NCBI RefSeq assembly: GCF_000230715.2 | Contig: NC_019792.1 | Coordinates: forward strand, 248,001-312,000 | DNA length: 64,000 nt | DNA from: Natronobacterium gregoryi SP2 | Lineage (GTDB): Archaea; Halobacteriota; Halobacteria; Halobacteriales; Natrialbaceae | Direction of reading: 5' to 3' | Shown here: positions 29,261 through 35,345 of the stretch, one piece after another | Numbering within the stretch: position 1 is the first letter of the stretch | Layout: every line of letters begins with the position of its first letter | The notes under the pieces: generated by a model | What the model was told of the DNA's origin: nothing | The model's input: only the letters and a program-made list of their open reading frames with translations | Database searches by the model: none | Position numbers and translations under genes: made by a program

Positions 29261-29516
29261 ATCGAGCAGCGATTATTCGGGACTTGTCTTTGTGAAAAGT
29301 GACTGCAAGACGGAACTCACCGATACGTACCTTACGGCGTGGACTGTTCTGGAGCGGTACGCCATAGTCTGGTGGGTCGCGCCACGGAGAGTCGATGATT
29401 TCGTCGGGTTTGTCGATAATGCGTTGCTGCTCGTTCGGATTGAGTGCATCGAGGTCGTCCTGTGCTTTCGATGCGAGTTTCCACGCCCACCCGTCCTCAC
29501 TCTTTCTCGTTGTCAG
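29184..29516 (-). pseudogene. RelE-type toxin, start codon lost and 3' end replaced by a repeat
   Basis: The minus strand downstream of the RHH gene encodes a RelE-family toxin body: WKLASKAQDDLDALNPNEQQ, then SPWRDPPDYGVPLQNSP and RRKVRIGEFRLAVTFHKDKSR. It overlaps the antitoxin end, as toxins usually do. There is no ATG, GTG or TTG in frame; the expected start is CTG (29514-29516), one base from ATG. After SRIIAARF the frame runs into palindromic element A4 and ends at a TAA inside it, replacing the conserved C-terminal basic residues. It therefore looks inactivated twice. Confidence 0.7.
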
Positions 29517-29775
29517 TGCCGAATTGCTCGCGTGTCTCTTGGGAACTCATCGTCCGTTGTTCACGAACGTCCTCTTCGGCTTGGAGAAGTGCAACGAGTT
29601 CGTCGCGGTCGAACGTGGGATGTTCGACGGCATCACGCAAGGTATACCGGATAAATTCGCTCCGGCTGTTGAATCCTCGTCCTTGCCACGTGTCTTCGAT
29701 CTCGTTGAGAAACGACCGTGTGACTTTGAAGTTTACCGTGACGATCTCGTCGTCGTTTGTGGCCGCTTCGGACAT
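29497..29775 (-). CDS. Ribbon-helix-helix antitoxin-like protein
   Basis: 92 aa. N-terminal RHH fold: EIVTVNFKVTRSFLNEIEDTW (beta strand and first helix), then RGFNSRSEFIRYTLRDAV (second helix). A charged C-terminal tail would wrap the toxin. It lies upstream of and overlaps a RelE-like reading frame, the standard antitoxin-toxin order. It should bind its own promoter as a dimer. The antitoxin frame is intact while the toxin is broken. Confidence 0.8.
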   Translation of the reverse strand: MSEAATNDDEIVTVNFKVTRSFLNEIEDTWQGRGFNSRSEFIRYTLRDAVEHPTFDRDELVALLQAEEDVREQRTMSSQETREQFGTDNEKE

Positions 29776-30268: not shown

Positions 30269-31960
30269 ATGAGTACGGACGATGAATCTTTCCACCCACT
30301 CGGAAGCGAGTGGGAAGGCGACCTCGAGTCGATGCTCGACGATACCGAGTACGATACGGATCTCGGTATGGAAATGGCCAAAGACGCATTTCGCGTCACG
30401 AAAGGCGAGCTCTCGGAAGCTGAATTCCACGAAAAGTATCACGACGACGTGATGGAGGAATTTGGCGAGGACGAGCGCCCGACGAAGGCAGCCTACGAGG
30501 AGGCACAGGCTGCCGAGGACGGCACCGCCTCTCGGATGCTTTCGAAGTTCGAAGGCGACGGCGAAGAGAGCCGCAGAGGCGCCATGAAGAAGATGGGGGC
30601 TGGCGCGGCTGCGGTTGGACTCGGTGCGTGGGGAACCGTCGACGACGGCCCAACCGAACCCGACCCCGAACCGTCCGCCGCTGCTGCGCAAGACGAAGCG
30701 GAGGAAGACGAAGGCGTCCAGTGGGGAATGGCCATCGACCTCGAGCGCTGTGACGGCTGTCTTACCTGTGTCACCGGCTGTGCACGGGAAAACCAGCTCG
30801 ACTCGGGCGTCAACTGGATGTACGTTCTCGAGTACGACGACCCGAGCGCAAGCGGTGAAGGCTCGGAACTCGCTCGAAACGCTGGCGGTGCCGCCAACCG
30901 ACTGGTTCGGCCGTGTCAGCACTGCACCGACGCACCGTGTGAGAAGGTCTGTCCGACGACGGCCCGCCACACGCGCGACAAGGACGGCCTCGTTCTGACC
31001 GACTACGACGTCTGTATCGGTTGCCGATACTGCCAGGTCGCCTGCCCCTACGGCGTCAACTACTTCCAGTGGGACGAACCGGACGTCCCGGCCGACGCCA
31101 TCGAAGAATACCACCAGGAGAGAGACATGGGCGATCACATGACCGACGACCGCGGACGCTGGGTCGACAGTCGCGCACCGCGGGGAGTCATGAGCAAGTG
31201 TACGATGTGTCCGACCCGACAGGACGGCCAGATGGGCGAAAGTCACGTCGGAACGACCGCCTGTGAAGAAGTCTGTCCAACAGGGGCGATCCAGTTCGGG
31301 AACATGAACGATCCCGACAGCGACCCCCGAAAGTACGAGGACAATCCAGCCCGCGGCCGCACCCTCTGGCGGATCAACCCGCCGAGCGCGGCCGACTTCG
31401 AGGCGGACCTCGACGGCGTCGACGACGACCTCGACTCCGTGCTCGAGGCGACGGATCTCGAGGAAGAGGAACTGACGCTGTTGAAGGCCGTCGAGATCGT
31501 CTCCGAGGACGAACTGTACGATGGAGACGACGACGACCTCCACAGCCACGATCTGGACTACCACGAACACGCCTTCCGGGAAGCCCTGGAAGCGCTCGCG
31601 GACCACGGCCTCGACCACGACAGCGAGGAGGTATTGGTCGAACTCGGTCTCGCCGACGAGTCCGACGACGACGAGGAGTTCGACGGTCCAGACGAGGACG
31701 CGGCCCAGATCACTCTCGAGTCGTTCACCGGCAGCCCGGACTCGAATTTCCAACTGCTCGAGGAGTACGGCACGAACCCGAACGTCGTCTACATGGGTCA
31801 ACAGCCGGGTCCGAACGCAGAGCAGACGGAGCCGACCGGTACTGGCGTGCCGTACGAGCGGCTTAGTTACGAGACGGTGACCGAGGATCAGATCGACCTC
31901 GTCGACAACCGCAAGGACGTGCTTGACGAGGATACCGTCGACGGAGGGCTGTTCTCATGA
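30269..31960 (+). CDS. 4Fe-4S ferredoxin-type subunit of an NrfD-linked membrane oxidoreductase
   Basis: 563 aa. Residues 1-95 are an unusual acidic N-terminal domain. A twin-arginine segment (SRRGAMKKMGAGAAAVGLGAWG, about 96-118) follows, unusually far from the N-terminus. Four Cys clusters for [4Fe-4S] centres come next: CDGCLTCVTGC (about 161), CQHCTDAPCEKVCP (216), CIGCRYCQVACPYG (249) and CTMCP...CEEVCPTG (311-335). This is the PsrB/DmsB/ActB-type electron-transfer pattern. After residue 370 there is an extra acidic insertion of about 140 residues before the usual C-terminal PNVVYMG. It overlaps the NrfD gene by 4 bp. No molybdopterin catalytic subunit is encoded nearby. Confidence 0.88.
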   Translation: MSTDDESFHPLGSEWEGDLESMLDDTEYDTDLGMEMAKDAFRVTKGELSEAEFHEKYHDDVMEEFGEDERPTKAAYEEAQAAEDGTASRMLSKFEGDGEESRRGAMKKMGAGAAAVGLGAWGTVDDGPTEPDPEPSAAAAQDEAEEDEGVQWGMAIDLERCDGCLTCVTGCARENQLDSGVNWMYVLEYDDPSASGEGSELARNAGGAANRLVRPCQHCTDAPCEKVCPTTARHTRDKDGLVLTDYDVCIGCRYCQVACPYGVNYFQWDEPDVPADAIEEYHQERDMGDHMTDDRGRWVDSRAPRGVMSKCTMCPTRQDGQMGESHVGTTACEEVCPTGAIQFGNMNDPDSDPRKYEDNPARGRTLWRINPPSAADFEADLDGVDDDLDSVLEATDLEEEELTLLKAVEIVSEDELYDGDDDDLHSHDLDYHEHAFREALEALADHGLDHDSEEVLVELGLADESDDDEEFDGPDEDAAQITLESFTGSPDSNFQLLEEYGTNPNVVYMGQQPGPNAEQTEPTGTGVPYERLSYETVTEDQIDLVDNRKDVLDEDTVDGGLFS

Positions 31961-33360
31961 GTACGAAGACTCCAACCGAATCCGACATCCTGCGGCCGGT
32001 CGGGATCGAGAGCATCTCGAAAACGTATCTTGCCGTGTTTGGAGCCGCTACCGCGGCGTTCGGTATCTTCCTGGTCGGCTGGTTCTACCAGCTTTACGTC
32101 GGGATGAGCGTCACTGGCCTCTCGGATTGGGGGACTGGTGGCGGCGTCACTTGGGGACTGTACATCGGCGCGTTCATCTGGTGGGTCGGAATCGCCCACG
32201 GCGGGATCATCCTCTCTGCGGCAGTCCGTCTGCTCGGGATGGACCGGTATATGCCGGTCGCTCGGCTCGCTGAGATGTTGACGCTGGCTGGCCTTTCGGC
32301 GGCTGGTTTCTACATTATCGTCCACATGGGCCGTCCCGATCGAATGGTTACGAGTGTCATCGGCCACTACCACATCACGGTCAACAATTCGCCGCTGGTG
32401 TGGGACGTGACGGTTATCACGGCATACTTCGTGCTGACCGCGACCTACCTCGGGCTGACGCTCCGGTACGATGTCTCACGACTGCGCGACGACCTGCCGT
32501 CGTTCTCTCCGAAGATCGGTAGCTTCCAGGCACCGGACTTGCTCGCACCGATCTACAACGTCATGACCCTCGGTTACAGCGAGAAAGAAGACAAGGTCAT
32601 CGAGCGGATGGTCTGGTGGGTCGCGCTGGCGATCATCATCATGGCACCCCTGCTCTTGCACGGCGGCGTCATTCCGTGGCTGTTCGCCCTGTTGCCGACC
32701 TATCCCGGCTGGTTTGGGGCAATTCAGGGGCCGCAGTTCCTCACTATCGCACTGACCTCGGCGATCAGCGGCGTGATCCTGGTCTCGTACGCGTTCCGTC
32801 GCGCCTACGACTGGGACCACATCATCACTGACGACATCTTCCGTGGCCTGCTGCTGTGGCTCGGGTTCTTCTGTCTGCTCTTCCTCTGGCTGCAACTCCA
32901 GCAGCTCGTCTCCGGCACCTTCTCGCCGACGGTCGATCACGCGGCTGCGACGGCCTCGAAGCTCTCGCATCCTGCCTATATCGTGCCGATGCTGATGGTG
33001 CTTGGCGTTCTCGCGTACATCTTCGCGACGACGCTGCGACCGTCGCTGTTCAACAAGAAACGCGCGATCGGGGCAGCCGTGCTCGTGTTGATCGCGACGC
33101 TGGTCGAGAAGACGTACTTCGTCGTCGCCGGTCTCTGGTACCCGGCCTTCGACATCTACTCGGCTACGCCCGGCGAGTACTTCCCGAGTCTGATCGAGCT
33201 ATCGTCCGTGCTCGGAACGATCGGAATGGTGGCGCTTTTCTTCCTCGTCATCTCGAAACTCGTTCCGGTCGTCGAACTTCACGCGATCGAACACCTGCGT
33301 GACGAACACGGCCACGAGGAACACACTGAAACCGAAAGCGAACCGGAGGTGAAAGCATGA
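31957..33360 (+). CDS. NrfD/PsrC-family membrane anchor subunit
   Basis: 467 aa, about ten TM helices. It shows the NrfD-type quinone-site region WWVGIAHGGIILSAAVRL near residue 69 and HMGRPDRM near residue 125. The second half has the matching helical bundle and a His/Glu-rich cytoplasmic tail. NrfD proteins exchange electrons between menaquinone and the Fe-S subunit, as in polysulfide reductase or alternative complex III. Start overlaps the Fe-S gene stop (ATGA), and its own stop overlaps the next gene the same way, so the three are translationally coupled. Confidence 0.9.
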   Translation: MSTKTPTESDILRPVGIESISKTYLAVFGAATAAFGIFLVGWFYQLYVGMSVTGLSDWGTGGGVTWGLYIGAFIWWVGIAHGGIILSAAVRLLGMDRYMPVARLAEMLTLAGLSAAGFYIIVHMGRPDRMVTSVIGHYHITVNNSPLVWDVTVITAYFVLTATYLGLTLRYDVSRLRDDLPSFSPKIGSFQAPDLLAPIYNVMTLGYSEKEDKVIERMVWWVALAIIIMAPLLLHGGVIPWLFALLPTYPGWFGAIQGPQFLTIALTSAISGVILVSYAFRRAYDWDHIITDDIFRGLLLWLGFFCLLFLWLQLQQLVSGTFSPTVDHAAATASKLSHPAYIVPMLMVLGVLAYIFATTLRPSLFNKKRAIGAAVLVLIATLVEKTYFVVAGLWYPAFDIYSATPGEYFPSLIELSSVLGTIGMVALFFLVISKLVPVVELHAIEHLRDEHGHEEHTETESEPEVKA

Positions 33361-33671
33361 GTACACTCGCAAGCGCGATCGCAACCCTTCCACTGTACGC
33401 CGGCATCGGTGGTACCGAGGGCGTGACCGGCTTCCCGAACATCGGGACGTACGTCATCTTCGGGGTCGTCCTGGTCCCGGTCTACGTCATGATCGCCGCG
33501 TGGTTCATCGGTGAACCACGTAACACGAAGGCTGGTCTGATGGGCCTCGCCTACCTCGTCGGGATTACGGCCGCGATGTGGGTCCCGATGCTGTTCCTCA
33601 CGGCCATCATCGGGATCGTCTTCTTCGGTGGCATCCCCGAACCGCTGCCGTTCAGCGACCCCGGCCCGTAA
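33357..33671 (+). CDS. Small membrane subunit of the NrfD module
   Basis: 104 aa with three hydrophobic segments (about residues 5-17, 30-50 and 62-95). Contains the loop FIGEPRNTKAG, which is conserved in the downstream paralogue. Start overlaps the NrfD stop by 4 bp, so it is almost certainly part of the same complex. No known family recognised; by position it resembles the small accessory membrane subunits of ACIII-like complexes (inference). Confidence 0.75.
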   Translation: MSTLASAIATLPLYAGIGGTEGVTGFPNIGTYVIFGVVLVPVYVMIAAWFIGEPRNTKAGLMGLAYLVGITAAMWVPMLFLTAIIGIVFFGGIPEPLPFSDPGP

Positions 33672-33699
33672 CTCCCGGTGTCAGCTAACCGACCGGTCG

Positions 33700-33711
33700 A
33701 ATTATTTTTAC
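33700..33711 (+). terminator. T-rich terminator after the redox operon
   Basis: attattttta tract about 30 bases after the small-subunit stop; AT-rich in an otherwise GC-rich region and followed by a decayed duplicate. Confidence 0.4.
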
Positions 33712-33830
33712 ACTCGAGAACGCCGCGAGACTGTTATCCGTTCTACCGCTCCCGGACGCGAGTCGTGATCCTCGGTGGACATGCATTCGCATGCAGTATC
33801 GAAACTTCGACGAGAACGGTGCCGACGACC

Positions 33831-34137
33831 ATGCCGACGATCGCCGATGTCGTCACCGCGGCGTCGACGGTTCTGTACCACGGCTACGAGGGGACCGACG
33901 GTGTTTCCAAACACTGGTCGCTGGCTCATCTTCGGGGTGGTCCTGATCCCGGTTTACGTCGTGGTGATCGCGTGGTTCACCGGCGTGCCACGTGATACGA
34001 AGACGGGACTGCTCGGTGTCGGTTACCTGGTCGGACTGACGTCTGGAATGTGGGCCGAGATGTTCGTCCTCACGATACTCATCGGGCCCGTCTTTTTCGG
34101 CAGTGTGCCGGAACCGATCGGGTCGGTCGGGCCATAG
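33831..34137 (+). pseudogene. Frameshifted duplicate of the small membrane subunit
   Basis: Paralogue of the 33357-33671 gene. The N-terminal part (MPTIADVVTAASTVLYHGYEGTDG) is in one frame and the rest in another (VFPNTGRWLIFGVVLIPVYVVVIAWF, then GVPRDTKTGLLGVGYLVGLTSGMW...PEPIGSVGP). The switch occurs near 33900. Aligned to the intact copy it matches along its whole length, including the PRxTKxGL loop and the PEP C-terminus. A short deletion or one-base insertion would explain the break. Confidence 0.75.
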
Positions 34138-34253: not shown

Positions 34254-35345
34254 ATGAGCATCACTGAACACGAACTCAAGATCAAACTCGAGGAGGTCGA
34301 AGATCCCGACATCGGCGAGGACATCGTCACGCTCGGTCTGGTCAACGACGTCACGATCGATGACGGTACTGCTCGTATCTCTCTCGCGCTCAACGCTCCA
34401 TACGCCCCATCGGAGATGGAACTGGGCAACCAGGTTCGAGAACTCTGTGACGAGGTCGGTCTCGAGGCAGACGTTCGAGCCAGCGTTGGTCGAGAGCACG
34501 GGTTCGACGACGAGGTTCTGCCTAACGTTCGTAACGTGATCGCAGTCTCCTCTGGAAAAGGTGGGGTCGGTAAGACAACAGTCGCAGCCAACCTCGCTGC
34601 TGGCCTCGAGAAACGCGGTGCGATGGTCGGGTTGCTCGATGCCGACATTCACGGCCCGAACGTTCCCAAGATTCTGCCAATCGAAGGCGAGCCTGGCGTG
34701 ATGCCCAACGAGGACATCGTGCCGCCTCGTTCTGACGGCGTCCGGATCATCAGTATGGGATTCATGATGGAGGAAGACGACGATCCCGCGATCCTCCGGG
34801 GGCCAATGGTCAACAAGTTCATGATGAAGTTTTTAGAGGGCGTCGAGTGGGGTCGACTCGATTACCTCATCGTCGACCTGCCGCCGGGGACGGGCGACGC
34901 GACGCTGAACCTGCTGCAGTCGATGCCCGTCACGGGGTCGGTCGTCGTCACGACGCCCCAGGAGATGGCGCTCGAGGACACCAGCAAGGGAATTCAGATG
35001 TTCAACAAACACGACACGCCGGTGTTGGGCGTCGTCGAGAACATGAGCTCGTTCGTTTGCCCGTCCTGTGACGATCAGCATGGCCTGTTCGGAACCGACG
35101 GTGCGGACGAAATCGTCGATAGATACGATACCCCGCTGCTGGGTAAGATCCCGATCCACCCTGACTTCGGTGCCGACGGGAGCAAGGGTCCGATCGTCAA
35201 AGATGACGAGAGCTCGGTTCAAGACCCCGTCGACGATATTGTCGACGAAATCGCCGATCGCGTCGGCAAGACGAACCGTCGCACAGTCGCCGAGAACACC
35301 TCCGACGAACCCGCAGACGTGTTACCGACCGAGACCGAAGACTGA
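34254..35345 (+). CDS. mrp: Mrp/ApbC (NBP35-type) iron-sulfur cluster carrier ATPase
   Basis: 363 aa. N-terminal MIP18/DUF59 domain (residues 1-85, VEDPDIGEDIVTLGLVNDV) precedes the P-loop NTPase. The deviant Walker A is SSGKGGVGKTTVAANLA near residue 99, followed by LLDADIHGPNVPK and DLPPGTGDATL. The CPSC pair (SSFVCPSCDDQ near residue 265) bridges the Fe-S cluster in the dimer. It transfers [4Fe-4S] clusters to apo-proteins, which fits its place just after a gene for a four-cluster subunit (inference). The TGA stop is the first three bases of palindromic element A5. Confidence 0.95.
   Translation: MSITEHELKIKLEEVEDPDIGEDIVTLGLVNDVTIDDGTARISLALNAPYAPSEMELGNQVRELCDEVGLEADVRASVGREHGFDDEVLPNVRNVIAVSSGKGGVGKTTVAANLAAGLEKRGAMVGLLDADIHGPNVPKILPIEGEPGVMPNEDIVPPRSDGVRIISMGFMMEEDDDPAILRGPMVNKFMMKFLEGVEWGRLDYLIVDLPPGTGDATLNLLQSMPVTGSVVVTTPQEMALEDTSKGIQMFNKHDTPVLGVVENMSSFVCPSCDDQHGLFGTDGADEIVDRYDTPLLGKIPIHPDFGADGSKGPIVKDDESSVQDPVDDIVDEIADRVGKTNRRTVAENTSDEPADVLPTETED

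Follow-up and report, generated by a model that had tools for sequence, protein, structure and literature searches.

A conserved Fe-S/NrfD gene cassette as a candidate complex III equivalent in haloarchaea without cytochrome b

About one-third of haloarchaea, notably Natrialbales, together with Natronomonas pharaonis, have been described as lacking a complex III equivalent, and the flow of electrons from menaquinone to halocyanin in these bc1-less organisms has been called unresolved (PMC3403918, PMC8305020). Which protein could carry out this step? The question is raised by a gene cassette of Natronobacterium gregoryi SP2, located in the 64,000-nucleotide stretch analyzed here (contig NC_019792.1, positions 248,001 to 312,000; hereafter, the window). 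The cassette encodes a four-cluster iron-sulfur (Fe-S) protein, FeS, an NrfD-type membrane protein, a small membrane subunit, and the Fe-S cluster carrier Mrp. First, the module could be the quinone-facing part of an enzyme whose catalytic subunit is encoded elsewhere. Alternatively, it may itself oxidize menaquinol and pass the electrons to a respiratory partner. We consider it likely that FeS, NrfD, and the small subunit form a menaquinol:halocyanin oxidoreductase, free of heme and molybdopterin, that serves as the complex III equivalent of haloarchaea lacking cytochrome bc. This reading relies on the complementary occurrence of the cassette and petB, the need of the oxidases for a one-electron donor, the presence of halocyanin genes next to some cassettes, the kinship of NrfD with ActC, and the quinol-site His and Asp that the two proteins share.

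Occurrence of the cassette, cytochrome b, and halocyanin

We surveyed 392 haloarchaeal genomes for the cassette NrfD and for cytochrome b (PF00033, encoded by petB). NrfD was scored as present at E<1e-130, a cutoff set in the gap between 1e-98 and 1e-139. By this measure, 125 genomes carry it, namely, 93 of the 96 without petB versus 32 of the 296 with petB (Fisher p=7e-58 with genomes taken as independent, a value that overstates independence since the genomes are related). The FeS gene is distributed in a similar manner (92/96 petB-less genomes versus 44/296 with petB). Within the host family (f1; 102 genomes), 81 genomes have the cassette only, 11 have petB only, 10 have both, and none has neither. 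The petB-less carriers fall into five contexts, family f1 and genera g41, g60, g65, and g76; g41 and g60 belong to family f3, and the further petB-less carriers are single genera of f10 and f11. Against a background of 11%, the rate among petB-bearing genomes, finding the cassette in five of five contexts has a probability of about 1.6e-5 by rough arithmetic. As for the three genomes with neither gene, two (G007 and G092) are devoid of heme-copper oxidases, and the third (G358) is an assembly of 150 contigs that is 91% complete. PF13631, a further model of cytochrome b, gave nothing above its cutoff in 80 petB-less genomes, and neither model detected a cytochrome b above cutoff in the N. gregoryi genome (3,788,356 bases). 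A weak PF13631 match in this genome was rejected as a cytochrome b, since it falls at a 114-residue open reading frame (ORF) beside cox genes.

Oxidases with a CuA site draw electrons from a one-electron carrier. All three heme-copper oxidases of N. gregoryi have the CuA motif; therefore, they need such a donor. The motif is likewise present in all 30 COX2 loci sampled from 27 petB-less genomes. Type-1 copper proteins were found in 28 of the 30 genomes checked and were absent only from the oxidase-less G007 and G092. Halocyanins were located by PF00127 searches; a motif regular expression run over neighboring ORFs gave one halocyanin and missed those encoded in operons. In all four sampled g60 genomes, which lack petB, one or two halocyanins that are twin-arginine translocation (Tat) lipoproteins are encoded directly upstream of the cassette and in the same direction (L148, L149, L199, and L200, with Pfam run on L148 and L149). 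In a genome of another family (G128, locus L141), a halocyanin gene is divergently adjacent to the cassette. The single PF00127 match of the N. gregoryi genome lies at C1:921277. Genes for copper-type P-ATPases occur near the cassette in two petB-less genomes, G217 (L140) and G128 (L141), an observation that fits a copper-dependent electron chain.

These neighborhoods bear on the identity of the electron acceptor. The module might oxidize menaquinol and hand the electrons to an oxidase supercomplex or another exported protein, leaving halocyanin out: no halocyanin gene lies beside the cassette in the window's own lineage, bacterial alternative complex III (ACIII) can form supercomplexes with oxidases (PMC5928083), and genes for ethylbenzene dehydrogenase heme-domain (EB_dh) proteins, possibly exported electron partners, adjoin the distant Fe-S/NrfD cousins at L152 and L157. 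Yet g60 and g65, two other lineages, do have halocyanin genes within the cassette or next to it, and we regard transfer without halocyanin as unlikely. The most likely partner of the module is a halocyanin that feeds the CuA oxidases.

Relationship to ActC and to other NrfD systems

In phmmer comparisons with the PDB, NrfD groups with the four ActC structures. A profile built from 23 relatives and searched against the whole PDB matched, at E<=1, only the four ActC chains (E values from 4e-34 to 8e-30) and no other solved NrfD. The predicted fold of NrfD has ten membrane helices (predicted local distance difference test [pLDDT] score of 75; predicted template modeling [pTM] score of 0.80), and a Foldseek search with this model returned the four ActC chains first, at template modeling (TM) scores of 0.76-0.82, followed by ActF. 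An ActC-like assignment also fits a published NrfD survey, in which haloarchaeal NrfDs labeled DmsC grouped with ActC/ActF (PMC8076601). The best matches of FeS are the C-terminal domains of ActB and the ArrB subunit of arsenate reductase, while its identification as DsrO or QrcC was rejected, given that the NCBIfam models score below their curated cutoffs. In the structure of the Rhodothermus marinus ACIII, the quinol site includes ActC residues His139, Asp169, and Asp253 (PMC5928083), which align by phmmer with His123, Asp150, and Leu242 of NrfD. His123 is found in 132/132 homologous loci (some of them redundant) versus none of six cousin NrfD loci, a set in which N. gregoryi's own dimethyl sulfoxide (DMSO) reductase-type NrfD is counted twice.

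ACIII, composed of ActABCDEF in Rhodothermus, Flavobacterium, Chloroflexus, and Roseiflexus, has in common with the cassette a ten-helix ActC-like NrfD that includes the quinol-site His and Asp, and an Fe-S protein, Tat-exported as predicted for FeS, that has four cluster sites and is akin to the C-terminal domain of ActB. Going by the title of a 2013 study by Majumder et al., the blue copper protein auracyanin is reportedly the acceptor of at least one ACIII. ACIII is described as standing in for cytochrome bc where the latter is missing (PMC8552683), and a large survey recorded no archaeal ActB (PMC10100899). The differences are substantial. FeS lacks the molybdopterin-like domain of ActB and has the PF16947 family at its N terminus; the multiheme and monoheme c-type subunits ActA and ActE have no counterpart in the cassette, nor does any ORF with at least two CxxCH motifs occur in the surrounding loci; ActD (PF11821) was detected in 0/41 relatives, with a control Thermus genome positive; and the tandem ActF is absent from the cassette. 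Conversely, a small subunit without a Pfam entry and the inclusion of Mrp in the operon are specific to the cassette. Because there are no ActB molybdopterin-like domain, c-type subunits, or ActD, and because the third cluster motif of FeS has four cysteines, the module would be better described as working like a reduced ACIII than as being one.

Other systems resemble the cassette in part. The haloarchaeal cytochrome bc1/b6f complex (pet genes) has the same proposed reaction, from menaquinol to halocyanin, but consists of unrelated proteins, and its distribution over the genomes largely complements that of the cassette. The haloarchaeal DMSO/trimethylamine N-oxide reductase-type module shares the Fe-S and NrfD pair and has a PF16947 ORF in its operon; however, it includes a molybdopterin catalytic subunit, and the NrfD in it shows 27% identity and has no quinol His. 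Compared with the complex iron-sulfur molybdoenzymes, the molybdopterin subunit is missing from the window and from the cassettes of relatives, being present only in the distant cousin L142. Qrc, DsrOP, PsrBC, and other Fe-S/NrfD modules have a common general architecture and different partners.

Gene anatomy, conservation, and the molybdopterin question

The FeS, NrfD, and small-subunit genes are joined by 4-bp ATGA overlaps (FeS/NrfD at 31957-31960 and NrfD/small subunit at 33357-33360), and Mrp follows downstream (Table 1). ORF coordinates and domain searches thus bear out the arrangement given in the original prediction, an account of this locus that preceded our analysis. NrfD matches PF03916. 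Among the 16 cluster cysteines of FeS, 15 are invariant and one is nearly so in an alignment of 21 sequences. Some features had been presented as more unusual than they proved to be. The acidic domain that precedes the internal twin-arginine motif of FeS does exist, and no relative of the FeS N terminus was found in the PDB, but it belongs to a known family, PF16947, and is less novel than supposed. The acidic insertion after the last cluster is also present; it acts as a linker and not as a conserved domain, since its length varies between lineages (about 156-159 residues in the window and Natrinema, 164 in G128, and 47-60 in the majority of other families). Finally, new small subunits had been proposed. 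The first stands, with neither a Pfam family nor a PDB relative, whereas the second ORF, ending at 34137, is a frame-broken tandem copy of it.

Table 1. Features of the cassette, numbered from the first nucleotide of the window
Feature	Position	Strand	Remarks
Fe-S subunit, FeS	30269..31960	+	563 aa; four cluster motifs; Tat motif
PF16947 (Ferredoxin_N) domain of the FeS N terminus	30293..30487	+	Residues 9-73; E=4e-35
Internal twin-arginine signal of FeS, SRRGAMKKMGAGAAAVGLGAWGTV	30569..30640	+	Arg pair R102/R103, unchanged across 21 relatives
Four cluster-binding motifs of FeS, C161 to C336	30749..31276	+	All four Cys present in motif III (CIGCRYC)
Acidic linker of FeS, variable, residues 346-503	31304..31777	+	Length varies by lineage
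NrfD-type, ActC-like membrane subunit	31957..33360	+	467 aa; ten predicted helices
His123 of NrfD	32323..32325	+	Aligns with quinol-site His139 of ActC
Asp150 of NrfD	32404..32406	+	Aligns with quinol-site Asp169 of ActC
Small membrane subunit	33357..33671	+	104 aa; no Pfam family
Second small-subunit copy, in tandem	33832..34137	+	Reading frame disrupted near 33886; several close relatives have an intact copy
Mrp/NUBPL-type Fe-S cluster carrier	34254..35345	+	Fourth conserved cassette gene; NUBPL/ParA and FeS_assembly_P domains

PF16947 also occurs as a free-standing ORF of 86 residues in the N. gregoryi genome (L096:5283-5543; C1 about 2450282-2450542), directly upstream of the gene for a Tat-exported molybdopterin subunit and overlapping its start. 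Since the family thus stands alone just before such a subunit, its distribution hints that PF16947 may be a leader or helper domain of Tat-exported redox proteins.

We compared gene order across 80 named loci and further loci taken from whole genomes. The order FeS-NrfD-small subunit-Mrp, with one or two small subunits, is constant in Natrialbaceae and in GTDB families f2, f3, f4, f7, f9, and f11 against a changing set of flanking genes; in family f10 (G128), FeS, NrfD, and the small subunit occur without Mrp. Dozens of genomes in several GTDB families share this arrangement, and the clustering of the cassette genes is thus far beyond chance. In a phylum-wide sample, strong matches were confined to the same taxonomic order.

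No molybdopterin gene is adjacent to the cassette in the window, as originally predicted; the host genome has seven Molybdopterin-family matches, all of them at other sites. Such a subunit in the operons of close relatives, which had been named as the sign of a simple loss here, was looked for and not found in their cassettes. The only molybdopterin-bearing cousin detected is a distant paralogue in G128 (L142; NrfD identity of about 44-46%), whose operon, besides FeS and NrfD, encodes a molybdopterin subunit and a member of the same small-subunit family, and G128 holds both this operon and the orphan cassette. We therefore rejected a recent loss of the molybdopterin subunit: the operons of relatives have none, and the cousin is a distant, coexisting paralogue. 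Given its conservation across Natrialbaceae and other haloarchaea, the cassette is not a recent remnant.

A conserved cassette might still dock with a catalytic subunit encoded at another locus and form the quinone-facing part of a molybdoenzyme that acts on, for example, sulfur, DMSO, nitrate, or arsenate. The seven host Molybdopterin-family matches provide candidate partners, the G128 operon joins such a subunit to the same kinds of proteins, and FeS is also close to ArrB. However, a molybdoenzyme leaves unexplained why the cassette is nearly universal in aerobic petB-less genomes and often missing from those with petB. Moreover, the cousin NrfDs lack His123, and FeS has its own Tat signal, unlike the molybdopterin-linked cousin FeS of L142. 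We consider this explanation quite improbable.

Additional copies of the two main subunits occur outside the cassette. Natrialbaceae often have a second NrfD without FeS, plus a second FeS elsewhere. In N. gregoryi, the second NrfD (L093; C1:2074463-2075794) adjoins a flavin adenine dinucleotide oxidoreductase gene and no FeS; it was rejected as an equivalent of ActF because it is 77% identical to the cassette NrfD and retains the quinol His. The second FeS (L155; about C1:715034) is at a locus separate from the cassette and has one Cys replaced by Asp in its fourth motif (KCIFD), possibly a [3Fe-4S] site. Upstream of the cassette, a gene for a 224-residue regulator-like protein (e.g., L007:7174-7848) is found in the loci of 38 relatives and is not present in the window, where the nearest upstream gene is a 92-residue ribbon-helix-helix-like ORF (29497-29775, minus strand).

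Proposed mechanism and implications

On the basis of the ActC alignment, NrfD would bind menaquinol toward the outer side of the membrane and oxidize it via His123 and Asp150. The electrons would then pass to FeS, which its Tat motif and 16 cysteines would place outside the membrane with four clusters, and from there singly to a halocyanin anchored in the membrane, as the g60 operons and the CuA oxidases lead us to expect. Halocyanin would, in turn, deliver them to the CuA heme-copper oxidases. Mrp probably provides the clusters, and the small subunit probably packs against NrfD. The earlier proposal of a hub between menaquinone and a separate partner, similar to a reduced ACIII, is favored by the profile search, the predicted fold, and the petB complementarity. 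Proton pumping has been proposed for ActC. A bolder version, which we find conceivable but lean against, is that NrfD, a four-cluster FeS, and a small membrane protein alone make up a heme-free, proton-pumping minimal complex III, which took the place of bc in several lineages of haloarchaea and whose Fe-S clusters pass electrons straight to a blue copper protein.

Several observations weigh against a complex III role, in addition to the lack of a neighboring halocyanin gene in the window's lineage. At the level of the proteins, Asp253 of ActC is replaced by Leu242 in NrfD, a position that is not conserved; motif III of FeS, which belongs to the cluster adjoining the quinol site, has four invariant cysteines versus the three-Cys motif of the [3Fe-4S] cluster FeS1 in ActB; and the model of FeS (pLDDT of 50) was too poor to be used. 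Regarding distribution, 81 of the 93 petB-less carriers come from family f1, which makes the p-value overstate independence, and 32 genomes carry the cassette NrfD together with petB. The sampled copies outside f1 that coexist with petB fall mostly in one NrfD subclade (tree support of 1.0), spanning f1 (g19), f2, f3, f4, and f7; this pattern suggests a mobile subclade that spread horizontally, and it may have another role. In addition, G128 has the cassette and no COX2, and the related natronoarchaea were reported to have neither complex III nor alternative homologues, quinol oxidases having been proposed for them (Sorokin et al. 2018, PMC6176080). It is very unlikely, though, that bc1-less haloarchaea feed their oxidases directly with menaquinol and use the cassette in a minor or anaerobic pathway: AArc1 has no cytochrome c or recognized complex III and has annotated bd and bo3-type oxidases (PMC6176080), but the CuA ligand motif is present in all host oxidases and all sampled petB-less COX2 loci, the near-perfect complementarity with petB would be a coincidence, and a missing cytochrome c is to be expected if halocyanin is the carrier.

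In the open-licence literature, we found no paper that names this cassette as a complex III or that joins ACIII with halocyanin. A specific gene cassette is now proposed for the step from menaquinone to halocyanin. If the proposal is true, the range of ACIII-like enzymes would come to include heme-free ones in Archaea, and a respiratory complex could be built from a bare Fe-S/NrfD module.

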